From contig KV918994.1 of NCBI GenBank assembly GCA_002049455.2, positions 60,866 through 124,865 on the forward strand: a stretch of DNA of 64,000 bases, written 5' to 3'. The notes under the pieces are model-generated. The model had not been told where the DNA came from, searched no databases, and saw nothing but the letters and a program-made list of their open reading frames with translations. The stretch is from Porphyra umbilicalis. Taxonomy: Eukaryota; Rhodophyta; Bangiophyceae; Bangiales; Bangiaceae. Each line of letters starts with the position of its first letter. The stretch's first letter is position 1. Shown here piece after piece: positions 11,501-58,680 of this stretch. Made by a program: the position numbers and the translations under genes.

Positions 11501-11699
11501 CACACCGCTCATGTGGCGTAGTTCGTTTTTGACTGGTCAACAGGCTATGGGCCCAATGTCGCTGGTAGTCATCTTCGTCTTCCTCGTTGTCTTTTGCGGG
11601 GTGCCGTTGGTCGGGCTGCTGTGTGTTCCGGCGTCGGGCAGGCGGTCTTAGTCTCCCACGTCGTCAGTGTTGCGCCTCGTGGCGCGGTTAGTCATCGTC

Positions 11700-12512: not shown

Positions 12513-12535
12513 AACGGAGAGCAAGTCCCGGGATC
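12450..12535 (+). repeat. 86-bp dispersed repeat, copy 1
   Basis: These 86 bases match the reverse complement of 26025-26110 with seven differences and no gaps. The shared block ends abruptly on both sides in both places. In this copy it supplies the 3' end and stop codon of the gag frame. Confidence 0.8.
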
Positions 12536-25967: not shown

Positions 25968-26024
25968 TTCCCTGGCCTTTAGGACAGGGTGCTCTCAAAG
26001 TGTAGTGATGCGCACATATAATTA

Positions 26025-26110
26025 GATCACGGGACTTGCTCTCCGTTTCAGAGGTGGCAGTCTGCATTCGTGTCCTCAGGGATCTGAGGGCGTGTCAGCG
26101 TTGGAAGGGT
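26025..26110 (-). repeat. 86-bp dispersed repeat, copy 2
   Basis: Reverse complement of 12450-12535 with seven differences and no gaps. Here it lies just inside the left TIR of the 25968-27340 element. The minus strand reads TRPQIPEDTNADCHL before the stop, parallel to the end of the gag frame at 12512. Confidence 0.8.
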
Positions 26111-26697
26111 CTCGATGACGCAAAAAGCGAATAGAGTTACGTTGCTGAGAGGGACTGCCCTGCCGAAGGGGTCACAGGGCCCGGACGGCGCGTGCCCCCC
26201 TGCCCCCCCCCACCGCCCTGAGTTGCGCGCGGCGACCACGCGCAGCGACTTCCGGGGTTCGAAGCGCTCACGATAACCCGCGGGTGATCGTGCCTGCGCG
26301 CCGGCTTCTGTTGCGGCGGCGCGTCGGCGGTTGCTGACGCCATCTACCGGCGCGGTTAGAGGCGCCCCGTCGCGCGGCGGTCGAATACACCCGCCCACCC
26401 GTGCGCGGTGTCGGCCGCCCCGCCCGCCGCGCGCAGATGCGCTGCGCGGCGGGGTGACGGTCCTGCCCGTGGGCGTTGCGCGACGCCGGCGGGCCGCCCC
26501 CGCTGCGGTGGCGGCGGCGGCACCCCTTCCCCCGCCCCACGCCCCCCCCGCCACGGCAACGTGGCCGTACGTGCCCCCGGGCGTGCTCGCGGCCATGGAG
26601 CCAGCCGGCGTGCCCGGTGTCGACGCGTCGCCGAGCGGGCCACCGCCCTGAAGGCCAGGGTGTTGCACGCACGTGCCTGGAATTTTGGGCAACCCTA

Positions 26698-33030: not shown

Positions 33031-34863
33031 TCACACCGCCGTCACCTCGTATACCGCGTCCACCGGCACCCCCGTCCGCCGCACGCTCACCCCGTTGCTC
33101 CACCGCACGACCAGCAACTCGACGGTATCCGCGCGGCCGAGCCCAAAGTGCACAATGCGCAGGTTGTCGGTGGAGCCAGCCCCCCCCGCCCCCCCCACCC
33201 GCCGCACGAGCGTGCGGCGGCAGCCGCCGCCGCCGCTGACGGTCAGCGTCAGCAGCGCGCCGGTCGGGGCGGCGCGCAGGCCCGGACTCCGCCCGACCGA
33301 CGCTTCGAGCCAGTGCCCCGCGCCGCCCCCCGGGGGCGGCGACGCGCCGTGGAAGAGGCGCCACCCCCCCTCGGGCCCCTGCTTGGGCACCTCGGGGCCC
33401 GAGCCGACGAACAAGTCGAGGCGGCCGTCGCGGTCAAAGTCCAGCGCCTGCACCGAGTCGCCGCCGGCGGCGGTCACGACCGTCGCCCCGTGCTCCGTGG
33501 TGCCGACAAAGCCGCCGGCCCCGTCGCCCGTCAGCAGCGCGTCGGGCCGCCGACGGGGCGTGACGCCGTCCGCCGCGGGTGGTTGGGAGGAGAGGAACAC
33601 GTCGACGTTGCCGTCATTGTTGAAATCCCCAATGGTCACGTCGTGGTGGCGGCGGCGGCTCCCCGCTGGCGGCGCGCCGAGAGAAAAATGATCATTGTCG
33701 ACGTTGAGCAGCAGCGCGTCGACTTCGTGGTTTTTGGCCAGGTACAAATCCCACCGCCCGTCATTGTTGGCATCCAACTCGGCCGCCGCCCACACATTCT
33801 TGCCGATCCGGGCACCGTCGGGCACGCGCGCCATCCACTTGGCGGTCACATCCTCAAACATACAGTTGCCGGTGGCGCGGAAGAGGTGGAGGAGCGGGAA
33901 GGCAACCACGTCCAGCCGCCCGTCCCCGTCAAAATCGGTGATGATGGCGCGCTCGACGTCGGCATTTTCCAAGCCGGTGCGCCACTGCCGCACAAAGCGG
34001 CCGCCCCGGTTTTCCACCACGTGCTGCCGGTCGCCCTTTACGCCGCGAGGGAGGATGAAATTCAAAAAAATCAAGTCGAGGTCCCCATCGCCGTCGCAGT
34101 CAATGAGGAGGGGCGTGCGGCCGCGGCCACCCGGCGTCGCCGCCTCCAAGCCTGTCTCCTTGTCGGCGCGGCGAAAGACGCGAGGCCCCAACTCGTTGAC
34201 GTGGCGGACGAGGAAGGGCTTGCCGGGCTTGTTGCCGTAGGCGCCGCCCTGGCTCGACACCACCGCCTCGGTGCCACGGAGGAAGATGTCCCCAGCCGTG
34301 AGGCCGTGCGTGTCAAAGCGGAAAGTGAAAAGGTCGCGGCCCCGCGTAAACGCCTTGGCGGGACCAGCGATTGTGCGACGGGTGTTCCAATACACCGCCA
34401 GCGGCGTGCGATCGTGGTTGTGGAGCACCAGGTCGTACCAGCCATCACTGTCCAGGTCGGCAATGAGCGCACCGCCCCACTTGAGGGACGTGTTGCGGTC
34501 GAGGCCGGAAAAGGGGGCGGCGGATGACCATCTGGCGGGGGGAAAGGTAGCTGCCGCCGCCACGAAAGGCATACCGGCGGTTATCGCCAGCGCGACCGAC
34601 GCCGTGACGGCGGCGGCCAAGAGTGCTGACGAGACGGAGGACTTGGGGTGGCTGCAAAGGAGGGTCATGGTCGTGGCGAGGATCGACGAGAGGCTGGAGC
34701 GAGGCTGCGCTTGTGGTGGTGGCGTCGTGGGAGTGGACGGCCGCCCACTCGACAATCCCGCGGGGTTGTGCGTCGCCGTGCCGGTCGTCGGGGTGGGCAT
34801 GGGGAGGCTACCGGTGGCGAGGGCGCGGCTGTTCAAGTCCTCACCAGTGCCGCCGCCGCTCAT
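33031..34863 (-). CDS. FG-GAP/VCBS repeat protein with C-terminal ASPIC/UnbV domain
   Basis: An intact 610-residue, apparently intronless frame from the ATG at 34863; the in-frame ATG at 34668 (residue 66) is an alternative start just before the hydrophobic segment. Residues about 75-105 form a signal peptide or anchor. Six Ca-binding DxDxDG-type loops of FG-GAP repeats are visible: DLDSDGWYDL (136), DCDGDGDLDL (255), DFDGDGRLDV (310), DANNDGRWDL (364), DFNNDGNVDV (413), DFDRDGRLDL (475). They predict a beta-propeller. The C-terminal about 90 residues (LRIVHFGLGRADTVELLVVR, WSNGV) match the ASPIC/UnbV domain found in CRTAC1-like extracellular proteins. It is probably secreted or membrane-tethered and involved in adhesion or ligand binding; the ligand is unknown. 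Unlike most genes here it has no frame breaks. Confidence 0.9.
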   Translation of the reverse strand: MSGGGTGEDLNSRALATGSLPMPTPTTGTATHNPAGLSSGRPSTPTTPPPQAQPRSSLSSILATTMTLLCSHPKSSVSSALLAAAVTASVALAITAGMPFVAAAATFPPARWSSAAPFSGLDRNTSLKWGGALIADLDSDGWYDLVLHNHDRTPLAVYWNTRRTIAGPAKAFTRGRDLFTFRFDTHGLTAGDIFLRGTEAVVSSQGGAYGNKPGKPFLVRHVNELGPRVFRRADKETGLEAATPGGRGRTPLLIDCDGDGDLDLIFLNFILPRGVKGDRQHVVENRGGRFVRQWRTGLENADVERAIITDFDGDGRLDVVAFPLLHLFRATGNCMFEDVTAKWMARVPDGARIGKNVWAAAELDANNDGRWDLYLAKNHEVDALLLNVDNDHFSLGAPPAGSRRRHHDVTIGDFNNDGNVDVFLSSQPPAADGVTPRRRPDALLTGDGAGGFVGTTEHGATVVTAAGGDSVQALDFDRDGRLDLFVGSGPEVPKQGPEGGWRLFHGASPPPGGGAGHWLEASVGRSPGLRAAPTGALLTLTVSGGGGCRRTLVRRVGGAGGAGSTDNLRIVHFGLGRADTVELLVVRWSNGVSVRRTGVPVDAVYEVTAV

Positions 34864-35685
34864 ATGCCGGTCGATATCGTCAGGGGCCGCGACTCCAACG
34901 CACTCGTCTCGCTAGGGATTAGTGTCGACGACAGGGCTAGTGTCGATGCCGGCAGAGGCGGTGTGGCGGGGAAGAGCAGGGGCATCATCAACAAAAAAGA
35001 CAGCACCGCCACCCGTGGCGAGTGCTCAGTGCGGGGTACTGTATCCGGCTCTTGGCACGGGACGAGTGGATCGCGGGTCCGCCGCGGAGACGTGTATCTA
35101 GTCTGGGTGGGTGGCCTAGTACTGGCAACCACAGCTGCGCGGTCCTGCTCGGAGGGCGTGCTGACCCGTTGCGACATAGCACCTGGGGTCCCGTGCGCGC
35201 TCTTGTACGTCAATTGTGACTCTGGTTCGTCGCGCAAGCATCTTTGGTTTGATGACAGCAACGGCTTTCAGTGCGTCTCACTCTTCTCGCTTTGGCGGCA
35301 TCTGGCTTGCGGTTGGGCCCACACCCAACAGTTTTGCGGTGTCACCAAACACAGCAGACCACTCGCCGTGCACCCTACGTTCCAATACAGGCGAAAGAGA
35401 CTGGATGTTTAACCACCGCACTCACGGCCGCGACGCATCGTATGTAGATGACCTATCCGGTGGATACCTGGGGCCGTGTAGCGTGTAGAGCGCGTCGGCG
35501 AATGAGGGGGCCGGCCCGGTGATCCGTCGTCGACAGGAAAGTCAGGGCGGGTCCCGCCGTCTGGTCAGCAGGCGGTTTTTCTGCAAGTCCCCGAGTGCTA
35601 CGTTGATGTGACAGCTGTTGTGCCAAGTGCATGGCGGAGCGGTGCGTGCGTGTGGTGACCACACGCACGCAGACAAGCAGAAGAC
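34864..35685. other. No recognisable gene
   Basis: Upstream flank of the FG-GAP gene. Plus-strand frames exist but lack any family match or splice structure. Confidence 0.4.
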
Positions 35686-37981: not shown

Positions 37982-38430
37982 ATGGCCACGGCGCAGGCGC
38001 GCGGCTACCGTCGTGCGGCGTGGCTGCTGGCCCCGGCCGCAGCGGACTGTGTGACTGGTGCGGGCGCAGGGACGTCTCAAGCGGCCGAGCGGTGGCCTTG
38101 TGGATCGCACTCGCTTCCGCCTTTGACAGTCGTGGTGCGAGGCAGACGTTCCGTCGGCCGCCAGCTGCTACCGACGGACCTGTGGGCGGCGCCCGCGGGC
38201 TTTGTCGACGCCGACTCGCGCACGCCCGAGGGCGCCGACGTGCCCCGCGGCGCGGCCTGGCTGACCCACCCCCGCTCGGGGGCGGGCAGCTCCACCGTCT
38301 GGCGGCACGCCGTCAAGGTGATGCCCGCCACCGTGTGCGACGGCGTCGACGCCGACGCGCCGCCGCCAGTGCGGGATGGCGGCGCCGGGGTGGGGGTGGC
38401 CGTGGACGCGGCGCCGCACCACAACATAAA
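37982..38430 (+). pseudogene. Partial plus-strand copy of the signal-peptide/membrane protein family
   Basis: From an ATG at 37982 a signal-like start reads MATAQARGYRRAAWLLAPAA then ADC, echoing the AADC junction of the two full family members. It then enters the 267-bp arm that is identical to the minus-strand gene's ectodomain (VGRQLLPTDLWAAP, RGAAWLTHPRSGAGSS). The intron, the first half of the ectodomain and the transmembrane segment are missing. The frame continues beyond 38417 only as low-complexity sequence. Probably a by-product of the inverted duplication, or an assembly artefact. Confidence 0.5.
38151..38417 (+). repeat. Perfect 267-bp inverted repeat, left arm
   Basis: Reads base for base as the reverse complement of 38873-39139, with a 455-bp spacer. 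The arm codes for the middle of the membrane protein ectodomain. Flanks differ immediately outside both ends. Confidence 0.9.
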
Positions 38431-38555: not shown

Positions 38556-39793
38556 TCAGGCGGTTGCCCCCCCCCCCCCTCCCCCCCATCCAGCGAGCTC
38601 CGCCTCCCCCCCCCCCCCCCCCCCCCCCCACCCACTCCCATCCACCGACGACCGGTGCCTGGCAGGCGACGGCAGCTCCCACGCCGTTGCCGGGAGGGCG
38701 CCCTTGGTCCACCCGCCGCCGTCTGCCTCGGCCACCCCGCGGCGGCGCTCGCGGCGCAGCGTCAGCGCCGACACGACCGCCGCCGCGGTGGTCGCGGCGA
38801 GGAGGCTCCCCAAGACAGACGACGCGACGGTCGGGGCCGTCGCCCAGCGACCGTCCCCGCCCGACGACCGCGGCGGCGCCGCGTCCACGGCCACCCCCAC
38901 CCCGGCGCCGCCATCCCGCACTGGCGGCGGCGCGTCGGCGTCGACGCCGTCGCACACGGTGGCGGGCATCACCTTGACGGCGTGCCGCCAGACGGTGGAG
39001 CTGCCCGCCCCCGAGCGGGGGTGGGTCAGCCAGGCCGCGCCGCGGGGCACGTCGGCGCCCTCGGGCGTGCGCGAGTCGGCGTCGACAAAGCCCGCGGGCG
39101 CCGCCCACAGGTCCGTCGGTAGCAGCTGGCGGCCGACGGTACTGCCGCCGCGCCACGACCAGGAGCGGTCGGTCAGGATGGCCGTCGTCGTCCCGTCGGT
39201 GCGGCGGAGGTAGATGGCCGCGGCGACGCCGTGGCGCGTCGGCCACGAGCCGGGGGGGTCGTCGGGACACGTCGGGTCGTCGCGGACGGAGAGTTCGACG
39301 GTCATACCCGCCGCCACGCGTAAGGGGGTGGCCGAGTTGGCACCCCACACGTTTTGGAGGGCGAATGTGCTGCCGCTGTTCTGTGGGTGGGGTGGAGCAA
39401 GGGAGGGCGGGCGGGGCTTGCACGTCAAGACGAGCGACGTTGTGTACAGCGTCAGTACTCTGTGCAGGCCCACTCGCGCCAGCGGACGGCAACGTGCCGG
39501 CCGCGGCACCTCCATCAGCTAACCACCCGTCCCCAACGAGTCAAAAGCAAGCGCAAGCACTGGGCGAGCACCTGCATCATCCAACGTACCAGCTTGGTCG
39601 AAACCCGCAGCACCGTTCGCGCGTACAAGCTTGTCACGTTGACGACGGCGGGGCAGTCGGCCGCCGTGCTGGTAGCGGATGCGAGGTAGCCACCCACAGC
39701 GGCGGCGAGCGCCACCACGCCGAGGCGACCTCTGCGGAGCGGCCGCCGTTGACGGCGGCTGGGGGCGCCCGCCCACGTGGTGCCGTAAACCAT
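38556..39793 (-). CDS. Signal-peptide, single-pass membrane protein (novel family, member A)
   Basis: Exon 1 (39793-39590) encodes a basic start, a hydrophobic core (LGVVALAAAVGGYLASA) and the signal-peptide end STAADC, followed by an N-glycosylation site in VVNVTS. The intron begins GTACGT and ends CCACAG. Exon 2 (39380-38556) keeps phase. It encodes an ectodomain with TVELSVRDDP, AAIYLRRTDGTTTAILTDRS, WSWRGG, VGRQLLPTDLW, RGAAWLTH and a conserved Cys (TVCDG), then a transmembrane helix near residues 253-275 (VLGSLLAATTAAAVVSAL), RRERRR as a stop-transfer signal, and a short Gly-rich tail. Total 342 residues. The paralogue at 58.7 kb shares the same layout, the motifs and the intron position. 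No known family is recognised; a type I surface or secretory-pathway protein is inferred. Part of exon 2 is the right arm of the perfect inverted repeat. Confidence 0.7.
38873..39139 (-). repeat. Perfect 267-bp inverted repeat, right arm
   Basis: Exact reverse complement of 38151-38417, lying within exon 2 of the minus-strand membrane protein gene. The 455-bp spacer contains C runs near 38570-38630. Confidence 0.9.
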
Positions 39794-41830: not shown

Positions 41831-42133
41831 ACGCTGTCATCGCGCTAGTGATTGCCCTATGGGAACAGAACCGCGATTTAAACGCGATCCGTGATCCCCG
41901 TGACAGCGAAGCAGGCGCAGGTCAGAACCGCGATCAAAACGCGATCGGTTGGACTTTGATTGGCTCACAAACGCCCTCAGATGCCAGCAGCCAGAGAAAA
42001 TGGGGTGTGGCGAGCGACACCGCTTACAGAAAACTGCGTAGGCTACAATCAGCTACCGCGATTGGGATCACCCCGGTCTTCCTGTTCGTATTACTTTTTG
42101 GTGGTACACCAGGCTATTTATTTCTCTTCTCTA

Positions 42134-42660
42134 TTACTCGAGCTGGTTGAAAAACCCTACTTGCTCCTGCTCAAGCTGCTCCTCGTGGGCGGCCTGCGCC
42201 GGGGCGTCGCCATCGTCGCCTGTCGCTGCTGTGGCGGCGGCGGCGGCGGCGGCAGGGGCGGCGGCGGCCGGGGAGGCGGCGGTGGCGGCGGCGGCGGCGG
42301 CGGCGGCGGCCCGGGCAGTCGCACGTATTCGTCTCGACTGCCGGTTATGAAGACTACGCGAAAGAAGAGCACACGCCCCCCAGCTGGAATCACATTGGGC
42401 GAGGCGCGGCTCACAGTCCTTCAAGTAGGCGACAGCCGCGTACAGCCTGTCCCCGGGGTGCGAGCAGAAAGGCTTGGTGGACCGCAAGATCTTCTCGATG
42501 GCAAACGCCACCCGCGGCCGCAAGCGCCGCCGGTCCGCCGCAGACAGCCCGAGCCGTGCGTCCTTGAAAATGTTGATGTTGGCGATGGTGGCCACCGGCG
42601 GTATCAGCGAGCGGCCACCCCCCAGGTACAGCCCGCCCCGCCCGTTGGTACGTCGGTTGG
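42134..42660 (-). CDS. Possible 3' exon of an unknown gene inside the outer CACTA element
   Basis: The minus frame reads LGGGRSLIPPVATIANINIF, AADRRRLRPRVAFAIEKILR, HPGDRLYAAVAYLKDCEPRL, then an Ala run and a Glu/Gln-rich end before the stop at 42134. Its balanced composition contrasts with the GC tract upstream (42.7-42.9 kb). Exons may lie further upstream near 43190. CACTA elements usually carry a second gene, and this could be that gene, but no homologue is recognised. Confidence 0.3.
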
Positions 42661-43612
42661 CACATGGCTCGCCTTCTTGGGACGCATCACCAGGCGGAGG
42701 GGGGGAGGAGGAGGGGAGGCCCGCAGCCACGGGTGGACAAGCCAGGGGGGGCGGGATGGCCGGAAGGGGCACGAGACGGGAAGGGGGGGGGGGGGGGGGG
42801 GGGGACCGGCGGGGGCGGTGGGGGGGGCGCCGGGGCGGGTGGGGGGGGCGCCGGGGCGGGTGAGAGGCGAGGGGAGGGGGTGGAGACTGGCGCAGAGGTC
42901 GACAGGGTCGAACCAATGGCCATGGCAGAGACACGCAGACGTGATGACCGGCGGGGAGGTGCTTGTCCATCTTGTTGGGTAGTCCCTGACGATGCATGAC
43001 GACCACCATTGACTTGTGAAGCATGCTGTTGTCCATCTGCATTCAATCCAAAAGCCGATCCAGCAGAGCAGCATGGCACGCGCAACGCAGGAAGGAGAGG
43101 TCAGACGCCACACAAGGAGCAGGTAAAGCACAAATGCAATAGAAATAGGGCTCCATCTCATCTTGTGTGAAGCCGTACATACCTGCAAGTGTCATCTGGT
43201 TCCTACCCGACTTACCAAGATGCAAATGCAGGCGCTGGCGGGATGGTATCGTGGCTTGTAGACTGTGACGGTGCAAAAAAAGAACGCGATGTTACCTGCG
43301 GTGTGGTGGCACACAATGCGCGGCGAGCCAACTCGAAGTCGAAGGCGACGGCGTCGGGTGGCAACTCGACGCCGTCGCTGAGACGTTGTCAATGGTCCAG
43401 AGAAATGCAGACGTAAAAACAAGTACACCCAAACAATGAGAAAATTCTTCCTGTTGCGTCAAATTTGCCAGTCCCCTTGCACCGCGGCCCACATCCCGGC
43501 CTTCTCTTGCCCAGTGCTCTGGCGAGAGCATGCATGCCGAAGGGCATGATGTGCCATCCAAAGAGGGATTATGAGATGACAGATGCAGCGAGAGTGGAAA
43601 AAAATGATCAGT

Positions 43613-44614
43613 TTAATCGGTGCTAAACACCTCCCTCGTGTACAAGACAATATGCTTCCCTCGCACAAGCAGTGTGCCCACAACAGCGTCGATGGCCAAC
43701 ACGTTCACGTAGCGCTTCAAGCCGCCCAAGCTCGTAAAACAGTCGGCATCACGACGCTGTTCGGCCAGCCCTGATATGCCGTCGCGGTCCGCCGATGAGC
43801 GCACGCACTCGATGTATGCATACGCCTTGGGGACGCCGTCGATAAAGACGAGTGCAAAATGATGCACTGCGCCATACACGCGGGCGGGGGCTTGTACCTC
43901 GCCGCGCCCCCGCCTTGCCGCCTGTCGCACGTGGGAGTTGACGCGCACGAGATGGTCGCGACGGCGGTCACCCGCCTCCTCCGACGAAGACACAGTCCCC
44001 GCGATCTGGCCATTTGGCAGTCGTGCGCGAAAATACTTCTTGGCAACTACATTGCTGGGAATTCTCGTCGCACCTTCCAGCGCAAGAACGGCCTTCATCC
44101 GCTGCAGCTCGTCGCCAATAAGAGCAGTCGAGGCCGTTCGAGGAGGAAGAAGATCCGACTTTGGCTCCTGCGAAAGTGAAAAGGTGCCGTCCGGATCTTG
44201 AGATTCACGACGAGCAGGCTTGCCTGTCGCATTCTCCCATGCGTCCGCGACGTGCGACTCTGCAAAGCTGGTGACCAGCTCAGCAGAGTACTTAGAGGAG
44301 ACGGCATTGGTCAGAGCCGCGTAGGGAAAGCGGCGCGACCGAATAAGCCGGGAGAGGGTGCCTAGAAGACGCTCCGCCGGAAACTGCCAGTATGACCATG
44401 CCGGTCCACATGAACGAAGGTTTGCGGTGACGTCCAGCAGAGCCACGACGGTTGGGCGGCACACTCGCAGCCGCCCCTCTTTACCAGCGTAAACGTGCTC
44501 GTAAAATGCTCGGCAAAAGCGCCGCAGGAGCTTGTCCACCTCGTGTAGCTCCGTTTCCGTCAAAACACCTGGCTTGAAAATCAAACGACCGGCATCGCAA
44601 AGCAGCATGAACAT
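43613..44614 (-). pseudogene. Outer CACTA transposase, 3' part (after the insertion)
   Basis: Begins immediately after the inner element with FMLLCDAGRLIFKPGVLTET, then LRRFCRAFYEHVYAGKEGRL, RVCRPTVVALLDVTANLRSC, GPAWSYWQFPAERLLGTLSR, the usual C-terminal block of Tnp2-type CACTA transposases. It ends with YVNVLAIDAVVGTLLVRGKH and a stop at 43613. Joining it to the part ending at 54967 across one AT gives an uninterrupted frame. The gene cannot be expressed whole while the inner element is present. Confidence 0.85.
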
Positions 44615-45291
44615 CGTCGGGAAAGTGTACCACCCTACTTGGGGGGTACTGGGGCGTACTGGGGCCCGATTTCCGTACTGTGGGGCCAAAACGGAGGCCC
44701 GGAGCCCAAAATGGAGCCCGGCCGCAGCCCGGCCTGTGCCAGGGCGGCCGAAACGTGGGCTACAAGTCTGCATGTCACGTACTCGAGACGGCTCGAGACG
44801 GCTCGAGACGGCGACCGGATTCCGCGTCTTGTAGCCCACCTCTGAAGCAGGCTACAAGTCGATCAAAACCCAGGCAAATCGAGGCCGCAAGGACCACTTG
44901 AACCGCGGAGCGGTCTCCCTCACGCGACTTGGAAGCAAGCTGCCAGCCACTGGTCAAGGATCAATCTCGGCGGGCATCGCTGGACCGCTGGACCTCTCCC
45001 CAACGCAGCACGTATCACCGCAGGCTCGGTGATGGACTGACTAGTCACACCTCCACTTGAAGCGCCTCTGTGCGTGCCGCATCGGCGGCCTCGATTGAGA
45101 AGCACGTCGATCCACACAGGTTCCTTGGGCTGCTTGCGCATGAGCCGCACGCACCGTGTCTTTCTCGCTGGTGAAAGGGGCTAGGTGAATGAGGTTATAC
45201 ATTCACACTACAGGTTATACAGTCGCACTACAAACGGGCCGGCCTGCACGTGGGGCCTCGCGGTGCAAAAACAGAAAGAAGACGACGACGT

Positions 45292-48200
45292 TCACTCGCT
45301 CTCGCATTCTCCCTCCTCCCAATCGCCCTCATCCCGTGCACGCTCTGACACGAACGCGTTGACAAAGAAGCGCGCCGCACGGAGCTCAGCCGTCGTCTTG
45401 GGCACCTTGTCGGGCATGACTGTCGCGCCGTGACGCTCGCAGAGGTCTTCCCAATCGTACTCTACCGACAACCAGCGCACGATGTCCTTGGCCTCGACGG
45501 CGTCGAGGCGTGCCGCGTCCGCGTCGGCCGGCACACTCCACTGCAATCGCTCACACCCGTACTTTGTGAGCACGCAACCCTCGGTTGTCGGTGCACTCTC
45601 AGCACGCCGTACGACGAGGCGCGCCCACGCGCTTGACCTCGCCTGAGTGACTAGCGCGGCTTGGCTAACCCGAAGCTCCCCTCCTGGCCCCCGGTAGCGC
45701 ACCCAGTCAAACCACGGTGCGCCGTGGAAGCTCTGAGCCGCTCGCACAGTGTGCGACATCCTCCCGCGTCGCGGGCGGGCGGGATCGCCGTAGTACAATG
45801 ACTTGGCACACCCCAGCGTCGTACTGTCACTTACCCCGAGCGCAGTACCCAGCCCAGGCAGGCCGTGGATGTGTGCCAGGTGTGCGATCGTGTACTGTTT
45901 CGTGTACCGCCGCCGCCGCGCCCCCCTCCGCCGCCGCCGACGCCGCCGCCGCTGGCGCGCGTCGCTACTCTGGCTGTCGTACTCGGGATCTGACGACACT
46001 TCGGATGATGTCGCGGACGGCGGCTCATCGGCGCCATCATCGAGAAGGATGCGGGAGACCTGCTCCACCAAGATCAGCTGCTCAATGAACTGGTCTCTCC
46101 TGTGGTTGGTCAAGTTGTACGCCTTTTTCACCGCCTTGTGTAGCGTTTCGTTGTACGCCGTGTTGCCATCGTAGAGGTTGCCCCGCAGCCGAAACTCATC
46201 GAGCAAGTGGGCAGCCATACGGTGAAGCTTGGTAGTGTGTGACGGGCCAAGTACTGGCTGGTAGTGGTCCACCACCCACTTGTGGGCCTTTGTCGTCTGC
46301 ACCTCCGCCTCTGCTAGCGTTATGCCGCCGCCAGTACACCGCGCCGAGAAGAGCTCGTTGGTCACATGGACCAGCTCGCAGATCGCCAGTGTGAGTGTAC
46401 TGTGATCCACGCCATCCCCGTCCGAGCCGGCCACACCAACCACCGCAAAAGGAAGAAAGGGCAGAGCACGCCGGTGCTCGCTACCGGTCATCGTTGCTTG
46501 CTTCTTTTCTTCTGGTACAAAGTACCTGCGGTACAGAGAAAACACGAGATACGAATCAGCGAATGAGGCTGTGGCTCCCGTTGTGTCAGAGCTTTGATAG
46601 CACCCACACAACACGAGCACCGCCCACACCACCCGAGCACCCCCCGCCCCGCCGCCCCACGGACCTTCCACATATCACGTACCCTGGATGGATATGCGGC
46701 ACCCGTAGCCTGCGTGATGCGTACTTGAAGCGCAAGTTCATTGCTCGCTCTGCGTTGGCCGCGGTGTCAAACCGCGTGCGGCCGCTCGCACCAGCAACTT
46801 GGCGCAGGTACAAGGGTACTTTGTTGGCCACTTTTCTGTTGATGCCCGAGTCCATCACCTGCGTGCTTGCGTTTGCGTGTGTGTGGAAGTGTGTAAGAAA
46901 AATCCAGGTAAGAAGCACAACGAAGATACGGAGCGGCGCCGTGAGATGAGCCGTTCTCAGCAGTATGTGCGGTGCCCAAACAGGATAAAAAACGTCGAGT
47001 GGAGCCAAGGGTGGCGATGCACACCATCATCATGATGGCCCATCATGGGCGAAGAGGGGACTCGCACGGGGGAGCCACCGTGAATTAGAGAGCAAGCGAA
47101 CGTACGTGCAGGCGGTCAAACCCAGGCAAGCGATAAAGCATCCGCGGTCCGTTTCCAAGTCCGGCCCAGGCGGCCAGGGCAGGTACCACACTGTTGAGGC
47201 TATGCTCCATCTCAACCTCTGCTCTCCGAGATGCAGCCCCCCAGAAGGTACCCATCGTCGCGTTACTGAGCTGCGACTTGACGGTAGCTTCGACGTCACG
47301 ACTCGGTGCAGCGGCACCCGCCGCAGTGCACGAGTTGTCTCGCTCCACCATACACGGCGTGCACGGAAAGAAGCACCCAGATCCTTTCAGGCACATGATC
47401 GCACGCTCCTCCGGCTGGTCACAAACATACAGGAGCACCCGCGGGGAGACGCGCACGCTGCCACCACCGGGCACTTGTAGCCACACCCCGCGGTGGCTTG
47501 CCACCATGCACGTGCGGAAGACGAGATGTAAAATCCGCTGCAGCAGCTCTGCGCGCACCTCGTGCCCTTTGCGCGTCTCGAGGAACTTGGACTCAACTTG
47601 GGGGATGTAGGCCAGCGTCACCCACCGCACCTCCTTGTTAATATTGTTGACGATCCGCATCCGTAGCGGGTAGGCCGACACTGCGCCGCTACTACTGAGA
47701 ACCGTCGAGTCCGAGTAAAGGTGCAGGCCAAGTACTCCGGTGCCTTGTCTCGTGGTACCCTGCACGTGGTAGAGCTGCTCCTTGTACATCTCCCCGTCCC
47801 ATGCGCCTCGTAGTACAGTATCAGGGACAGAGTCGTCAGTGGTGTCGGGTCCCCAGTACAAGTCCCCGTGCTGGGTGTTGGCGACCTCGCTCCGGATAGC
47901 GTCCAGCGCGTCGCGGAAGCAGACACTGTACACCTTGCCGTCAATCTTCATGGACGCCTTCTTCCACTTGAGCGGGGCGATGAGCGCCCGTTTGAAGCGG
48001 CGCACCGAGGCGATAAACCGGTCAACTGTCTTGAAGGTATCGGAGAACGGCTTGATGGTGGCGTTCGTACCCTGTTCGACGACCTTGGTGTACCTGTACA
48101 GCTTTCGCAACTGCTTTTGCGACAGACAAACGCCTCCCCCTCCACCAGTACATGCCCGTTCGAAGACGTGCCACAGCGCCTCATTCGTCCACGGCGCCCC

Positions 48201-48950
48201 ACCACCGGACCGACGGCCACGACCGCGACCGCCGCCCCTTCTGCCCTCCCCCTCCCCAAGTGGTGGAAAAGCATCTGTCACCTTCCTCACATCCCCAAAG
48301 CGTTCGTAGTGCTCAAAAACATCATCACAAAGCGCCCTGTCGGCCCTCTTGCCAGGGTCTCCACCACCCACGCCACCCATATCCCCCCCATCAACGTCCC
48401 CACCACACGTACCATCGTCTCCTGTGCCCCTACCAGCCGCATAACCGCGACCACGCCGCGCAGCACACGCGCCGGACCCCCAGTCCCCTGTAGAGCTGCT
48501 GTCGTCGTCGTGCGCCCCACTCGCTGCGCGCCGGATTCCACGCCCTCGGCGGCTTCGGTTGCATTGAGCACGGCGCACCTGCTTGGTGCGCTCGGATGGT
48601 GCTCGCCGTCGGGTACGACCTCGGCGAGGCGATGGCGGATGTGCCGTCAGTGTACGAGATAGCTCCAGGAAAATGGGCGCCTCTAGCTCGACCACGTGCA
48701 CACCCATCCCACCAAGGTTGGTCCCACCTGGGTCAGTCCCATCCAGGCCAGGGGTAGGAGCATGCACATCTCTCGCCACTGCAGCTGCCGTAGCTACGGG
48801 ACCGTCGTCAGACTCAACGCAGTAGGTCTGAAGGGACGGTGCCGAGTTGCTGGGGGCGTCACGGGCATGAACGACGGTCACGTGCCTCTGCTCACCCAGG
48901 GCCGTCTTGAGCAGACGGCCGCAGCCTGGTACCCGACACAAAAAACTCAT
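45292..48950 (-). CDS. Plavaka-like (CACTA superfamily) transposase, three exons, intact
   Basis: Exons 48950-47106, 46858-46683 and 46525-45292 join in phase to 1084 residues with no stop. Introns start GTACGT in both cases and end ACGCAG and CCGCAG. The start at 48950 places a C2H2 finger at the N terminus (C5, C10, H23, H28 in FLCRVPGCGRLLKTALGEQR). A low-complexity basic/Gly region follows. The conserved core, roughly residues 400-530, contains VLGLHLYSDSTVLS, LRMRIVNNINKEVRWVTLAY, VRVSPRVLLYVCDQPEERAI and CFFPCTPCMVERDN, as in Plavaka transposases. Exon 3 contains KLHRMAAHLLDEFRLRGNLY, YNETLHKAVKKAYNLTNHRR and an Arg-rich stretch. It should cut and join the element's ends in the nucleus. 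Divergent from the accessory gene, it lies within the 44615-54966 element. Confidence 0.85.
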
Positions 48951-49859
48951 GTCAGTCTCAGACACATGCGAGCAGTCGGTCTCGGAATGGAAAACCCAGA
49001 CAGAGGCGACTGGTCGGTGTCGGAAGGAACGAGCGTGTACCACGCACTGACCAGTACTGATTCAAGAGACACCGTCAAGGTCGCAGTACAATCATCTTCA
49101 ATCAGGCGCTTGTCAGTAAGTAGCCTCCTAAAAGTAGCCCCCCAGAACTTCATGGTGGGTGACAGGGCTGTCAGATCATATGTCTCCTGTCAAATCGCTC
49201 GCCAAGCCGACACTCTCTGCGTGCTCTGTGTGGCAGCTGTGGAGACCCCCGCGCGCGAGAGGAGATTTCATTTCTTCGGTGTGTCAGAGTACATATCTGG
49301 TCACATGTCCAAGTGTACCGCGTCGCGGTCAGTACAGACCATCGTTTTTGTGCTGAACAGCAGCGATTCGCCCAGCGAGGGTGGCCTCGCGAGCGCGTGA
49401 GGGGCATGCGCTTGGCTCATGCCTGACTTGGCCCGCGGCTTGGCCCGCGCACGACCAGCGGGGCCGTGTGGCCCGGTAGTGGCTCGGCCGGTCCTTGACC
49501 AGTCTGACGCCTGTCCTCTGCCCCTGGCACCCGCTGTCCCTCGCACCACTCCCGTGGGCTTCAAAAGTGAGGACCTTGCCCCGCTCTGGTACGTTACCAA
49601 CCGTGGTGCCCCAGTTGCTGCTCTCAGCACCAGTACCCTCCTCCACCACCGCTCCACCGCCCACCTGCGCCACCGGTCAACCCGTCCCTGATACCGCCTG
49701 CCCCGAAGTCGGCTCCCAAGCCGGCCAAGTCGACCGTCCCAACCTATCCCGCCCCCCCCCCCGCCCCCCCCGGACCTCCTGCCCGCACGCCCCTCCCTGG
49801 TGTTTTTACTGTGTCTTGGTGCCGTTTACGCGTCTTCTTCTGACCGCTGACAGAGCAGG
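48951..49859. promoter_or_regulatory. Shared upstream region of two divergent transposon genes
   Basis: 909 bases separate the start codons of the transposase (minus) and accessory gene (plus). GTACTG/CAGTAC motifs like those at the element ends occur here (for example 49049-49055 and 49330). A C run lies near 49755-49775. A bidirectional promoter with transposase-binding motifs is inferred. Confidence 0.4.
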
Positions 49860-52800
49860 ATGTCTGTCGGGCCATTCCTCGGCCGCCTCCTGGTCTCCGT
49901 TGGCCACGTACTGGCCCCAGAGGTGGCAGAAACCGCCCTGTCGGCTGCCGCTGATGGTCGGCGGCGTCGCGCGCCGCTGGCGCACGCGGCCACGTCGCCG
50001 TCTACGGACGACGACGTCGTTCTGGTCTCTACCGTGGCGGCCGCTGCCACCACCGCGCCTCCCCCCGCCCCCGCCACCCTTGCCGCCCGCGCCACCCTTG
50101 CCGCCCCCGCCCCCGAGCCCGAGACTTCGCCTGGGTTCACTCCTCGTCACGCCTGCCCCTCTACAGAGATGGCAGGCGGTGGTCATCCACGTTTTCGGCG
50201 TTTGCGCCCGATGAGTGACGTGGCGAGGACGGCGTCGGGCGTGGCGACAGAGGGCGGTGCGGGCGGTGCAGCCGCACCGGCACGCCCTGCGACACCGTCT
50301 ACACTGACGGACACCCCCAAGTCGGCGGCACCTGTGGCGGCGGTACCGGTGGCGGCGACGGTGGCCGAGACAACCAACACCGGCGGTGGCCCAGATGCCG
50401 TTGTCACTACCGGCGTGCCGCCGATAGGGAGACCGACTGTGCCTGGGGGTGGCTCTCGGTTGGCCGTCGTGGCGGACACGGCGGCGGACACCGGCGGTGC
50501 TGCGGCCGGCGACGTGGCCTGCAATGTCGGCATTGGCCGACCAGCGACGGCCGCGGCTTCGTCTGCACGGAACAAGAATCGAGTCATTTCAAGTGGTATC
50601 GAGAAATTGTACGTACCGCGCCTGCGCCTGTGCTTTGTACTGTAGTAGGCGGGTCCTGGGAGCCGTGGCCCGAGTCAGAGCTTTACTGTCCATGTGAGGT
50701 GTGCTCCAGTGTGTACTCTGTGGCGCGCTCTCATGTACTGACACGGAAAGCGTGCTTGCACCGCTCTTGCTCTTCTTTTCTTGTGCTGATGAGCTGGTAC
50801 TTGATTGCTTTACTGTGTGTTTCCTGTGTGTACCTACAGCCAGACCAGCCTCACCTTCCTTTGGCAAGGCCGCAAGTCGGTTCCAGGGGGTGCTGCCGCT
50901 GCTGCATCGGAGCTCGTTTCGGGGGCCGCTGCCTCTGCGTCGAATGGCAGAGGCAATCTGGTGAAGAAAGGAACCGGGGGGCAGCCACTACCTCTGCGGA
51001 TATCGAAGTCGGCACCAGCCATTGTTCCTCCTTCTCCTAAGCGTCTCAAGCGCACGCAGGCGCAGTTGATGGCGGCCGCGGCAGCTACCGCGTCTGGGGA
51101 GCTCGTGTGGCAGGTGGACGGGGTGGACGTCCCCGTCGCGCCGCCGGCTTGGGACCCCGCCACTTCCAACACTCTTCTGTGCTCCCAAATCGTGGCGCAC
51201 AACTCCTACGTGTCCGCCCTAGAGACGCGAAAAGTGAACGAGGCGATTGCGGCAGTGGCGGGGGCGGTGGCCGCGCTATCCGCCAACCACAAGGCTCAGT
51301 CTAAGGCGGCCGCTGTCGACGTCGGCGCCGGTGTCGGCGCCGGCGTCGGTGCCGCGGACGCAGACGTCAATGCCGACGCCGACGCCGGCGCCGATTCTGA
51401 CGTCGACGTCGACAAGGTCGACTTTCCCGCGAAGAAGCGCCTCCGAGTGGACGAGAACAAGGTGGCGACCACGGCCGCGGCCGCCTCCGACGCCGAAGAT
51501 GAGATTGTCGTCGTGCCCCGGCAGCCCGCAGCCAAGACGTGCGGTGTCCGCCGCCGCCATAGTGGTCGGCGAGTCGCGGCCGCCAAGGGTGAGGGCGGCG
51601 CTGAGTCCGAGTTCACCGAGTGCGGCATCCGCAAGCCGCGGATCCAGTCGTTGCGCAGCTACCTCATCACGAAGCTGCACACCCTCTTCTTAGCGCCGGA
51701 CTGTGCCGACGACGTCTTCCACTCCCTGAACGGTCACATCACGTTTTTCGAGTCGGTGGTCATGCGGGTGGGCAAGGTCGGCCAGGCGGATGCGCAGACG
51801 CTGCTCAAGGAGGAGTTTATGGTGCCAGCCAAGAGCGACGGCAGTAAGCCGTCGCCAAAGAAGCTGAAGCCGTGGCTCGGCAAGGCGCTCAACAACGTCC
51901 ACTACAACCTCAAGGAGGTTATCGTGCGGGCGTGGGCTGAAGCCACGGGCTACGACGGGACCAAGGCGGAGGCGGGCCGCTTCCTGAAAGGGAGGAGTTA
52001 CTTGATGGAGTCTGTGGGGAGGCGCGGCGTGCTGATGGCCTACTTGGCGGCCGTCAGCCACTGTGGGGGGGACGCCGACCAGTTCGCCTTTCCTGACGGA
52101 GAAGAGAGTGATGCAATCGTGACAGTCAGCCTTGCTACTCTCGCTTTCGTTCTCAGCAAGGTGCGGGTGACATGTGGTGTGGGGTGTCTTGTGTTGTGTG
52201 AGTGAATGGCAGTGAGAGATGCGCGTGGTCGGTGCTCTTGTGATGTCGCGGACTGGCACAGCTCATTTCAACTGGCTTGCATTGCGGACGTTCGGTGCTC
52301 GGGATGTATACTGACTTTACGAATGGTCGGCCGTGCTGTGCTTCACCGCTGGTCCTTGCTGTCTGCTGCTTCACCGCTGGTCCTTGCTGTCTGCCGCTTG
52401 CTACTTGCTGCCTTTGGACTGCTTTGTGTTGGTGCTGGCTGCTTGCCGCCGTTTGCACTTGTCGTGGTTGTGCTGCTCCTCGTTGCCCGTTGACTGCTTT
52501 GTACTGGTGCCTGCTGCTTGCCGCCGTTTGCACTTGTCGTGCTTGTGCTGCTGCTCGTTGCCATTTGACTACTTTGTGTTGGTGCCTTCTCCTTGCTGCC
52601 ATTTGCACTCGTCGTGTTTGTGCTGCTTTTGGTTGCCCCTTGACTGCTTTGTGTTGGTGCCTGCTGCTTTCTGCCGTTTGCACTTGTCGTGTTTGTGCTG
52701 CTGTTGGTTGCCCCTTGACTGCTTTGTGTTGGTGCCTTCTGCTTTCTGCCGTTTGCACTTGTCGTGTTTGTGCTGCTGCTCGTTTCCCGTTGACTGCGTT

Positions 52801-53794
52801 GTACTGGTGCCTGCTGCTTGCCGCCCGTTTGCACTTGTCGTGTTTGTGCTGCTGTTCGCTGCTTGCTACTTGCTTCCTGCTATTGGACTGTTTCTTGCCT
52901 ACTGTCTTTGCTACTGTCTTTGCTTTCTGTGCTGGCCTGTTCGTTTTCTCTTTTTGTTCTCGTACTTGGACAAGCAGATTCGCATCATGCTGGAGGCGGC
53001 GTACACGTCGACCGCGGCTGGGCCGATTGTACCCAAGAGCCGCAAGATGGCCAAGCACAAGGAGCGCGTGAGAGCGAAGCGCCCCCGTGACGATGCTGGC
53101 GACTTGGCCGAAGATGTGGACGGCAAGCACATGCACACGTTCTTGCATGGTGGCGTCATCAAGTCGGCCAGGGTGGTGTGGGCGAAGGAGCTGGCGTACT
53201 TGGACGTGAATGTGGACGAGTGCGGTGACTTCTGGGCCAAGGTCTTCAAGACAAACAAAGACAGTGCGGACAGAGCGACCATCGCTGAGCACCCCGGGGT
53301 ACCGAGCGCCAAGTTCTCTATCGACGTCAGCGTTGACGACCACACGGTCGTCGACTCCGCCGTCACTACCGAGGAGCTCGACTCGTTGCGCGTCTTTGCA
53401 CAAGAGTGGGTGGCGGACCAGATCGCATCCAACGTCGTCATGGACGTGGACGACAGCGAAGACGGTGACGGGGCTCGTGGAGGGGGAGGGGCGGATGGTG
53501 GGGACGGCGGGGCGGGTGGCGGTGGGGGCGGCGGCGGTGATGGTGGGGGGGGGGTTCCGGTGGTGGCAACGGCGGCGGCGGCGGTGATGGTGGGGGGGGG
53601 ATTCCGGTGGTGGCAACGGCGGCGGCGGCGGTGATGGTGGGGGGGGGGATTCCGGTGGTGGCAACGGCGGCGGCGGCGGTGATGGTGGGGGGGGGGATTC
53701 CGGTGGTGGCAACGGCGGCGGCGGCGGTGATGGTGGGGGGGGGGATTCCGGTGGTGGCAACGGCGGCGGCGGTGGTGATGGTGGCGAGGGGGAT

Positions 53795-53827
<33 letters not shown>

Positions 53828-54226
53828 CATGGTGGCGAGGGGGACACCGGTGGCGGCGGCGGCGGCGGTGATTGTGGTGGGGGGGACACCTGTGGTGGCA
53901 ACGGCGGCTATGGGGGCTATGAGGGAGGGCGGCTCGTTGGCGTGGTTGGCCCGCACGGTGCCTCGGGGTGGCCGAGCGGCGGCGGCGGCGCTTCGGATGC
54001 GCCTTTCGTGCCGCGGCGTCTTGGTGCCGGTACCGGGCGCATCCCCAGTCCCATGCCTCGCCACCCGTTTTCCTCCGGGGAGGAGGAGGATGACATTGAG
54101 ATCCGGCGTCCAAAGAAAGCGCTTTGGACGCGCCGTCGGTCGCAGGGGAGCCGCCCGACGGGTGACGGCAGTATGGAGTCGGACTCACCCTTTTCCCTGG
54201 GAGACGCCGACAGCGCGTCTTCTTAG
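49860..54226 (+). CDS. Large accessory protein of the inner transposon, unknown function
   Basis: Exons 49860-50608, 50840-52160 and 52978-54226. Donors are GTACGT and GTGCGG, acceptors CTACAG and AAGCAG, and the joins keep phase. Exon 1 is Ala/Thr/Pro-rich. Exon 2 has basic nuclear-signal-like clusters (PSPKRLKRTQ, PAKKRLRVDE) and an unusually normal, probably folded part (YLITKLHTLFLAPDCADDVF, HSLNGHITFFESVVMRVGKV, KPWLGKALNNVHYNLKEVIV, RAWAEATGYDG). Exon 3 continues with DGKHMHTFLHGGVIKSARVV and WAKELAYLDVN, then a Gly-rich repeat of 16 residues, and ends acidic then basic (EEEDDIEIRRPKKALWTRRR). Two single-base losses in the Gly repeat shift the frame as written. They may be base-calling errors, since the same frame resumes to a sensible end. 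No known family is recognised. A DNA-binding or regulatory partner of the transposase is inferred from its position. Confidence 0.6.
52425..52860. repeat. 75-bp minisatellite within intron 2 of the accessory gene
   Basis: About six units, each containing TTGACTGCTTTGTGTTGGTG, CCGTTTGCACTTGTCGTG and TTTGTGCTGCTG. Because 75 is divisible by three, long frames run through it on both strands, but the splice sites place it in an intron (52161-52977). Confidence 0.8.
53553..53792 (+). repeat. 48-bp coding minisatellite (16-residue Gly-rich repeat)
   Basis: Five units, with full 48-bp spacing at 53601, 53649, 53697 and 53745. The G-rich frame reads SGGGNGGGGGDGGGGD. The first unit lacks an A before TTCC and the next has 9 rather than 10 G. 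Together these shift the frame by two bases. Confidence 0.85.
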
Positions 54227-54966
54227 TCTGGTTTGAGTTCTCTGTATGTGTGTTTGTCCTGGCTATCGTCTTGCTTTGCCTGCATTGTCTTCTTTTGTTT
54301 GTTTGTTTGTTTCTCGTGGGGGTTGTGTCTGGGTGGGGCATCGGGAAGAAGCGGGCGCAGGCGTTGGTGCGGGGCACCGGGAGGGAGCTCGCGGGGATGG
54401 CTGGGGGCGGGGGGTGGGGGGGGGGGGGGGGGGGGGCGTGAGAGCCCCAGGAGCGACCTGGAGCCTATCCCAGAAGGCGCCTGAAGGCCCTGTAAAATGG
54501 ATATCAAGCAGCAACGTATAGCATTGGGAGGAGGTAACGTGGCCTGTCCACTGTGCCGCATAAGAGCGCTTCTGAGCACGTCACGTATCTCCTTGGGGTC
54601 GGTGTACGTCGCGAGACGCAGGTGCGTCGCGCAGGTGCTACAGGGTTGAGTACGTTGCAGTGGAATGGTCGGCTACGCTTCAAGTCCTGTGCATTTGCAT
54701 TCCGTCAGGACAGGGCCCCCACAGAGCCCTTGAGGGGGGGTGTATGATAACCACCCCCCCTCCCAGAGGCATCACTGGCCAGTGTCACAGTACATGCACG
54801 TCTTAAAACGCGAATAATCGCTGATGTACTAGTTTGGAAGAACACTGTGGGGAAACGAGGCAAGTAACCCCGCGAATATGTGTACTGGGCACATTTCACC
54901 TCAATCTGAAATGCGACACGCTGTACTGGTCAGTACGCCCAAGTACAGTGGTACACTTTCCCGACG
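54227..54966. other. Right subterminal region of the inner transposon
   Basis: No gene. Contains a G run (54414-54437) and repeated GTACTG/CAGTAC and GTAC motifs toward the right TIR. Confidence 0.5.
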
Positions 54967-56819
54967 ATCTTGAAGAAATCTTCCGGAATTCTGTCAGCAA
55001 GTACAGCTTCACCGGTGCATAGCAGGAAGTACATCTAGTCAACTGCTTTGTATGAACCGGAATGCTTGTGGATGTCGCGAAGTGATCTTGCTTGGCTGAG
55101 GGGAATCGTCTTCCGTCCCGTCTTCATCTCGCGCCCAATGCACTCACGGACAGCCTTAGGGATGATGCACGGCTGGTCGTCATCCAGCTTCTCGTTCTCA
55201 CCGGAAAAGAGCCCCCACAAGCTCGGAACGACGTTGAGCAAAAAAAGATGCATCGTGTCGTACGGCAGCAGGTCCGGGCCGATGTCCCAAAGATACTTGA
55301 GCGAAGGATAGCGAGCCTTGTCTTCAGGACTGGGGCATATGAAGAGCGAATATCCTTTGAAGCCCTCCTTCTGTGCAAGAGCCCTTATAGCTGTCTTGCT
55401 CCCGCCTGCTCTGCGCGCATCCTCGACCGTGGCGACGCTTGCAGAGACACTGGCCGCAGTGCGTCGCGGTGTAGATTCGCCTCGGACATCGAAGCGTGGG
55501 TGCTTAGATGGAGGTGGGTCGGCTGGTGCGTACGGGGGGTAGTAGTATCGTCGCTTGTGCCAAACTCCGGCGAAGTCCCGAAATCTGCCAGGGTGCTCGC
55601 CATTCCCCCCGATTGCGTTCAAGAGCTTGTCCCCTGCCGGCATGTCTGTCGTGAACTGGAGCACAAAGGCTTGCAAAACTTGCGGCTCGGAGAAGCCCGC
55701 GACGGTCACACCGCTGACGCCAGCGGCCAGAATGTCGAGCTCTTCCGCGATAGGGTGCAGGAATGACTCCAAGTCAACAGGTTGTCCCGGTCCGGGGGTG
55801 ATTCCGACGATAATTTGCGAAACGACTTGAACCCTCGAGCTTGGATCGGCGCTGAGGATTGTGATAATTATCGGCCATCCTTCGAAACCGCGCTGCCTCC
55901 AAGCTTGAAAACCGTCCGTAGAAATACTCAGAGCGACGCACGTGTTCGTGGAAATGTAGCCCAGCTCCACCAGTTTGCGAAAGATGGCGCCGCTGAACCA
56001 GTCTCGGATGTCTTCGACAGGGCTGATACCGGCGGCTTCCCGTGCTTCTTTCATGGCGTTGACCATGCCTGTCCCAATATCGGGGTCGGCTAGCATCATT
56101 CTGAGCCAGGGGAGCAGAGGCCAGTAAGTCGCTTGCTTGTGGGGCTTGCCGTCGCTTCGGTAACGTGGAGCCTTACACATATCGCACTCCGTTAGATTTG
56201 GTCTGCCAGCGGTGAATGCGACACAGCCAGCGCTGCAGCAGTCGACCTTTCTATCGTAGAGGTCGACACTTGCCGCCACCATTTTATTTAAGAGGTGAGA
56301 CGTGCGGCATGTGCCGGCAGCACGGCGCTGCCGCAGGTAGTCATCTGTCGCCTCTCGGGAAAGGCAGTGCTGCACGATGAAGTTGTAGGCCACATAATCG
56401 TCTACATTGTCTTTAAAGACGGACGCAGGGATGCAAACGCCGTTGGGACGCAACTTGTGAGGCTGGGAGTCTGGCGCTGGCGCGCTCAGGGCCTCTCTGC
56501 TGCTCCCAGTGGCGTCGTCCGCCCCGCCCGCACCCCCGTCGCCATCACCTTCGCCGCCTTGCCCGGTCGCTCCTGTCGCAGCCACCAGTGTCGGGACCGC
56601 ACGGGCGGCCACTGCAGTATTCCTGGGCGCTGTGCTGGAAGCCGCCGGCATCTCAGCCGCCGCCGGCTGTTGACGAGAGGGACGTCCGCTCCGTGACCGC
56701 CTGTGATGGAACCAGGTCCTGCGGGGTAGCCAGGAGGAGTTACCCGGCACCCCGCCACTGCACAGGGGGCAGCTACATTCCCGAAGACCCTGGTTGTCGG
56801 CGAGGGGGGGGCGTTGCAT
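54967..56819 (-). pseudogene. Outer CACTA (Tnp2-type) transposase, 5' part
   Basis: The start ATG at 56819 precedes a Cys/His N-terminal motif (CSCPLCSGG then LPRRTWFHH). The Tnp2 core follows: HLLNKMVAASVDLYDRKVDC, LTECDMCKAPRYRSDGKPHK, YWPLLPWLRMMLADPD, VALSISTDGFQAWRQRGFEG, WPIIITILSADPSSR, IIVGITPGPGQPVDLESFLH, PIAEELDILAAGVSGV, then YLWDIGPDLLPYDTMHLFLL. At 55035-55037 a TAG stands in SYKAVD-stop-MYFLL, where the family has Trp, so it is most simply TGG to TAG. The frame then continues (CTGEAVLADRIPEDFFK) to the insertion point at 54967. The 3' part is at 43613-44614. A TATA-like element lies upstream at about 56968-56976. Confidence 0.85.
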
Positions 56820-56967
56820 GAGATGTGAGGCTCGAGGAAGCTGGTGATAAAGTGGGCGGGGGGGGGGAGATGGTGTGGTGGTGGGGGGTGGACTAAAAGG
56901 CAGTAGGGGAGTGCGCGCTGGTGGCTGTTGTGAGTAGCATGATGACCTGAGCCCGTGCTGGGTGGAA

Positions 56968-56976
56968 ATATATAGG
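56968..56976 (-). promoter_or_regulatory. TATA-like element of the outer transposase
   Basis: The minus strand reads TATATATTT about 150 bases upstream of the ATG at 56819, inside otherwise GC-rich DNA. Inferred from position. Confidence 0.35.
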
Positions 56977-57077
56977 CTCTGGCGGAGGGGTGACGCGCAA
57001 ACGGAGCACCATCCAGGCCGGTGCAAGCCAGGTGCGCGGAAAAGTATGGCAAGGCAGCCTTGGTTATGGAGCTCCAT

Positions 57078-58680
57078 GGCTCCTGATTGGAAGCTTTCAG
57101 ATGACTAGGGAGGCTTCCAGAATCATCAAGAAGCGAACTGTCCAAGGCCAATCAGAATGCTTCCTGGATCCGCACCGCGCCCCGGAACTGTCAGGAACCT
57201 TTGATCCGCCGCTGGCCTCCTCCACATTGGTGTTCCTGGGTGGGGGATGCCCGATATCGCGTTTGGATCGCGGTTCTGTTCCCATAGGGTTGGTTCGTAG
57301 GGTGCATCATGAAAAAGAGGTGTGCGGCCATGCTGGGGTGTAGATGTCGTATACCGAGCGGCACAACTGCCAGCATAGTTCTATCAAGGTTTCAACCACA
57401 GCGTTGTTGTTAACCATTGCGGACCTTCTTTGGCATTCAGGTCCAGGCCTCCTTCAGCTGTTCACAGCTCACAGAACGCGGCAGGCCGGCAATCGACGTG
57501 GCCGCCAATGGGCCACCCTCGAGGCAAACTGTAGAAAAAATACCAAAGCGTGTCGCTCTGGCAACGACGTCCCGGGGTCGTCCGTGAATGCCACGCCACC
57601 GTCCCCAACGCCCTGTCCACGAGTCCGTCCCTGCCGGGCTTCTCCTCCTCTCCGGAAAGTGCTACTTTCATGCGCAATCTGCTCCTGTAAGTGCAGTGCC
57701 CATCTAATAGACAGCAGTATCAAGTGGTAGTTGGGAAGTGGTAATCGGACCGTGTGGCCAAGAAGGCGTGTCCTTGCACTACAGTCACGAGAGAGGGTTC
57801 GAAAGGGATTCGTTGGGCCGATCCACAAGGATCCCCAACGAAACGAAGACCCCAACAAAAGCCCAACAAACCCCAACCTTATTTAGAATCGTTGCGCCCC
57901 GCCCCGTAACAAAATGCCAACCAGAATTGCGCTCGTTGGGAAACAATAGAACAGCTCACGATGGGTACGTTGCCCATTAGTGTGCACATGCGTCTGTAAT
58001 CTGTCGCGCGGGGACCATGGGGCCGTCACCTGCCGCGGTGCGTGTTTCCGCCGTCCAAGCTCCGCCTGGACGTTGGCCAGCGCGTTGCGGCAGCAAGGAA
58101 GGGTCACCCTTCCGTGCTGCCACACGGTGTGGCCAGCACGCCACGGCAGCAATGCAAGACGAGTCGTTGCTACGGCGGCATGGAATGGTGACGCCCCAAC
58201 CGCGGCTCGCGCGCCGATCTGGTCGGGCACCCCGCCAACGTACGCCGCCGCTGATACCCCAGCAGCACCGCAAGTGAGCGCACCAGGCGGGCCGTGCGCT
58301 GCCCCTGTGGGCCTGGCGCATTGACAGCACTCAGAGCTACCAAGGAGGACTCGCGCGGGGCGCGCCGCGCCTCCGTGGCGCCCCGGCCAAGTCTGAGGAC
58401 GCCCACAGAGGGGCCCCCTTGTTTGGCGCCTCCTCTGCAAACGCCAGCTGGCGTCTCACAGACGGGCCTCGCTGCCGCCTTGCAGTTGGTGCGTGCCGCC
58501 GCCGGCGTCACGCGGGCCAGACGCCCCGCTCGCGGCGGCCACGCCGGCGGTCAGAGGCGCCGCCGACGTGCCCGCCGCCGACCTCTTGTTGCGACCGTGT
58601 GGCCGCCGCTACGCCTACGCCCCAGGCGTCGTCGAGCCGCCCAGCCGATCGCGACGCCACACCACCCGACGAAGGGAACG
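57078..58680. other. Right end of the outer element and intergenic DNA; no gene
   Basis: To about 57951 this is the right subterminal part of the outer CACTA element (CCAACGA/CCAACAAA motifs at 57810-57945). Beyond it only short unconvincing frames occur up to the next gene. Confidence 0.4.

Follow-up and report, generated by a model that had tools for sequence, protein, structure and literature searches.

We found that a Plavaka-type transposon has very probably entered the transposase gene of a CACTA/TRC-like element at an AT, duplicating this dinucleotide. In the window, by which we mean the whole 64-kb stretch of DNA analyzed, the terminal and flanking repeats of both elements were observed, as were the order and strand of the genes on either side of the insertion (Table 1). 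The original prediction, in which the transposase gene of one DNA transposon houses a second DNA transposon, is supported by the terminal inverted repeats (TIRs) of the inner element, the AT at both of its flanks and the continuity of the frame across a junction that retains a single AT. The nesting dates the two elements relative to each other, the outer one having been in place before the inner one arrived. Such nesting, although well supported here, is ordinary in eukaryotic genomes; in the part of DeMarco 2006 (PMC1636069) available to us, 3 of 14 SmTRC1 copies lie inside repetitive elements, two of which are LTR retrotransposons.

Table 1. Features of the nested elements, in window coordinates.
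Feature	Position	Strand	Remarks
Outer element, CACTA/TRC-like	41855-57289	-	15,435 bp in all; about 5.1 kb when the insertion is subtracted
Outer element, left TIR	41855-41888	+
Outer element, right TIR	57256-57289	-
TTG target-site duplication of outer element, left copy	41852-41854	+
TTG target-site duplication of outer element, right copy	57290-57292	+
Outer transposase gene, 5' part	54967-57077	-	ATG at 57077; in-frame TAG at 55035-55037
Outer transposase gene, 3' part	43613-44614	-	open in the frame that follows from the 5' part if a single AT remains
Inner element, Plavaka-type transposon	44615-54966	-	10,352 bp
Inner element, left TIR	44615-44633	+	CGTCGGGAAAGTGTACCAC
Inner element, right TIR	54948-54966	-	CGTCGGGAAAGTGTACCAC
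AT at left flank of inner element	44613-44614	+	presumed target-site duplication
AT at right flank of inner element	54967-54968	+	presumed target-site duplication
Inner transposase, predicted exon 1	47106-48950	-	Plavaka domain, first two D residues, CxxC
Inner transposase, predicted exon 2	46683-46858	-	GT..AG splice sites read from sequence
Inner transposase, predicted exon 3	45292-46525	-	histidine motif and putative last E
Left subterminal GTAC cluster	44627-44678		4 copies
Right subterminal GTAC cluster	54882-54954		5 copies
Putative second gene of inner element	50169-53634	+	exons 50169-50608, 50840-52160 and 52978-53634; 3' end uncertain

The TIRs of the inner element are a perfect inverted match over 19 bp. 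Allowing up to three mismatches, CGTCGGGAAAGTGTACCAC was found twice in the window, at the two ends of the inner element, against a chance expectation of 0.01 matches on average (100 shuffles). The similarity of the ends extends imperfectly beyond the 19 bp, to 39-42 bp at 88-90% identity. We scanned the whole window for inverted repeats that match perfectly over at least 17 bp and are separated by 3-20 kb. Of the pairs listed, three were judged not to be of low complexity: the inner pair (21 bp, including the AT), the outer pair (23 bp) and a 30-bp pair at 12501/26043. The remaining pairs were, in our assessment, low-complexity sequence of G-run, C-run or GGC type. Ends lying at 44615 and 54966, as first proposed, proved exact to the base, with both the TIR match and the AT on each side confirmed. 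We also considered ends shifted inward to an internal TGT..ACA, which would suit PlavakaA; these were rejected, as the bases outside them (AG/CT) form no direct repeat and the argument from the reading frame would be lost. Within the window, no second copy was detected by blastn (E 1e-5) or by tblastn with both transposases, nor did a natural empty site come to light, so the inner ends rest on a single insertion. A 17-base piece of the TIR had no match in a viral contig collection, and protein searches of viral, prokaryotic and phage collections returned no relatives, a result that says little about a eukaryote.

When the flanks were joined with one AT, the sequence ..RIPEDFFKMFMLLCDAGRL.. was obtained in a single frame reading FFKMFMLLCD, whereas the frame was lost if zero or two AT were kept; the proposed restoration of the frame was thus borne out. 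Over its first 600 bases, the 3' part of the outer gene is free of stops in the continuing frame, whereas the two other frames contain 4 and 6. The outer frame does continue across the insertion, as had been claimed, but it is not open right up to it, since an in-frame TAG is found at 55035-55037. The three lines of evidence put forward at the outset, namely TIR match, AT flanks and frame, were all present but carry unequal weights, the TIR match being overwhelming. By our own rough estimate, rather than by computation, equal flanking dinucleotides would arise by chance in about 1 in 16 cases and a matching frame in about 1 in 3.

These observations also bear on whether the 10.35-kb segment could be native to the outer element, as part of a compound transposon or as a large intron with a second transposase. 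In favor of this, a single pair of outer TIRs encloses the segment, and the two transposase genes share the minus strand; however, the segment is bordered by perfect TIRs and AT flanks of its own, it splits a codon, and an in-frame junction is obtained only if one AT stays between the flanks, and we regard a native origin as very improbable. That two elements were artificially joined in the assembly appears more improbable still: our reading is based on one assembly, but matched TIRs, a matched AT and a kept frame would hardly come together by chance.

The AT adjoining both inner ends fits a 2-bp duplication. AT is its own reverse complement, so that an insertion between A and T without duplication, in which the ends of the element would be TCGTCGGG..CCCGACGA, gives an identical sequence and an identical empty site, and the two readings are indistinguishable from one site. 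Plavaka families are, however, reported with 2- or 3-bp duplications in the part of PMC12730594 available to us, and we consider insertion without duplication improbable, in favor of an AT duplicated upon insertion.

The inner transposase was modelled with three exons and GT..AG introns, placed by splice-site letters only, without transcripts, and the model gives an open reading frame of exactly 1084 aa; the intact transposase of 1084 residues in the original prediction holds in the form of this open frame. Residues 327-559 of the predicted protein match the Plavaka transposase domain PF18759 (E = 2.5e-17, 63.6 bits, Pfam cut-off 26.3), and exon 1 alone also gives the domain match. The candidate motif residues D414 and D511, the CxxC at C530/C533, the histidines H770/H775/H780 and E800, which were chosen by eye and aligned to no reference transposase, follow the order described for the CMCT clade. 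A match to CDC45 (E = 0.29) was taken as chance. Querying the PDB with a partial sequence of the protein returned three matches, all at chance level (E 1.2-1.5), and the single-sequence AlphaFold model of part of exon 1 had a mean pLDDT of 34.8 and was left unused.

The original prediction placed the two elements in related superfamilies; this agrees with Kojima 2025 (PMC12730594), in which, as far as the available part goes, Plavaka and EnSpm/CACTA both belong to the CMCT clade, with target-site duplications of 2-5 bp and CA..TG ends common to most lineages. The inner element resembles Plavaka in its transposase domain, in the order D, D, CxxC, H(4)H and downstream E, and in flanks compatible with a 2-bp duplication. 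Its termini, CGTCG..CGACG (CGTCGGG..CCCGACG), differ from those given in the same part of that article for PlavakaA (TGT..ACA, 2-bp duplication) and PlavakaB (CATCA..TGATG, 2- or 3-bp duplication), and CA..TG ends are absent from the inner and outer elements alike. As the ends fit neither subgroup described there, the inner element was assigned at the superfamily level only, its termini suggesting neither PlavakaA nor PlavakaB. It differs further from the TET-carrying PlavakaB described in that source, as no TET/JBP dioxygenase was matched in Pfam scans of the ORFs of at least 100 aa and the two spliced models, a scope from which short exons could escape; it also differs from the Plavaka elements described there in having a probable second gene that lacks a Pfam match. 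Outside fungi, Plavaka-type elements or transposases are mentioned, in the parts of the reports at hand, for the green alga Auxenochlorella, whose EnSpm-Plavaka elements (PMC12633428) were compared with the inner element by description only, and for Amoebidium, a protist related to animals (PMC11244446). A search of the open-licence literature with the first 13 bases of the inner TIR found no paper, and a published Plavaka relative may still exist.

The ends of the inner element are rich in GTAC, with 4 copies in its first 100 bp and 5 in its last 100 bp. These 9 copies in the terminal 200 bp compare with 0.7 expected at the window rate; the inner element outside its ends is richer in GTAC than the window, and at the rest-of-element rate 1.3 copies are expected (Poisson P ~1e-5, uncorrected for the choice of the motif, which was picked after the ends had been inspected). 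Four of the gaps between neighboring sites measure 8-10 bp. CACTA elements have subterminal sites bound by the transposase and, by analogy, the GTAC sites may be candidate binding sites of the inner transposase.

A second gene, divergent from the transposase, is probable in the inner element and, as modelled, encodes 805 aa. In its first 758 aa, Pfam matched nothing with an E of 1 or less, and among 39 further ORFs of the inner element Pfam returned one weak match (E = 0.044), taken as chance; the single-sequence AlphaFold model of part of the second gene had a mean pLDDT of 42.7 and was left unused. A G-rich array of 48-bp repeats at 53515-53908 lies within the gene. The first two units of this array are 47 bp long, differ at or next to the G run and shift the frame, so the 3' end of the gene is uncertain; these units could reflect slippage or an assembly error. 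A 75-bp tandem array of about six units is located at 52417-52862, inside the predicted second intron.

The outer TIRs, CCCTATGGGAACAGAACCGCGAT, match perfectly over 23 bp and have 2 mismatches over 34 bp, and together with the TTG/TTG they bracket the whole nested unit. The termini start with CCCTATGGG and are of the form CCCTA..TAGGG, i.e., CCC-type, unlike the CAC(TA) of canonical CACTA/EnSpm elements. The 5' part of the outer gene matches Transposase_21 at E = 1.4e-4 and 21.6 bits, below the Pfam cut-off of 28.6, and the 3' part has no Pfam match. G+C is lowest at codon position 2 in both parts (0.618, 0.532 and 0.647 at positions 1 to 3 of the 5' part; 0.655, 0.483 and 0.643 in the 3' part). 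The name CACTA given to the outer element at the outset stands in the broad sense only, considering its CCCTA..TAGGG ends and the sub-threshold Transposase_21 score. In the available part of DeMarco 2006 (PMC1636069), the TRC elements, a CACTA-superfamily group of animals, have CCC-type TIRs, with a quoted Tribolium TIR that starts CCCTA, and 2-bp target-site duplications. The outer element is like SmTRC1/TRC in its CCC-type TIR and Transposase_21-like protein; it differs in that score and in its 3-bp duplication, TTG, vs. 2 bp, although 3 bp falls within the 2-5 bp of the CMCT clade.

Two lesions interrupt the outer gene, the insertion and the TAG, either of which may be the older, with 22 codons between the TAG and the split codon. 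Because of this in-frame TAG, the outer copy seems to have been disabled independently of the insertion. We considered whether the TAG could be a 3' splice site paired with a GTGAGT upstream at 55147. This was disfavored, as the intervening stretch, judging from tnp2 proteins, seems to be part of the protein, and we prefer to regard the TAG as a probable nonsense codon rather than a splice site.

As for the mechanism, the inner transposase, a putative DDE enzyme of the CACTA/Transib/RAG1 kind, would bind the TIRs and the adjoining GTAC arrays and then excise the element by cut-and-paste. Joining would take place at cuts in the target that are offset by 2 bp, and repair by the host would convert these into the AT duplication; the insertion would have split the outer transposase gene. 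Here, the limits of a Plavaka-type element whose transposase gene is open are clearly drawn, helped by the coding frame of the target, and the element adds a terminal motif absent from both Plavaka subgroups in the part of PMC12730594 available to us. It is conceivable, though we would rather doubt it, that the element represents a third Plavaka sublineage in a possibly non-fungal host, with CGTCG..CGACG ends, GTAC sites about one helical turn apart near these ends, insertion at AT and an accessory protein encoded by a second, divergent gene, and that it may still be mobile.

The window has a G+C content of 63%, and scans of it with Rfam (gathering threshold) and for tRNAs found nothing. Away from the nested elements, two segments of about 90 bp at 12448-12538 and 26022-26112 form an inverted pair with 91-92% similarity and could mark another mobile element. 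A copia-type reverse transcriptase (RVT_2, minus strand) lies near a copia-type gag (plus strand) at 10051-12512, and a DDE_1 transposase match (E = 5.6e-12) is found on the minus strand at 14764-16092; DDE_Tnp_4, EamA and JmjC matches were also obtained among the 61 ORFs scanned in the window. The minus strand at 33034-34911 encodes an FG-GAP/ASPIC-UnbV protein weakly like cartilage acidic protein 1, and 38129-38417 is repeated in inverted orientation at 38873-39159, over about 289 bp and with 97.6% identity.
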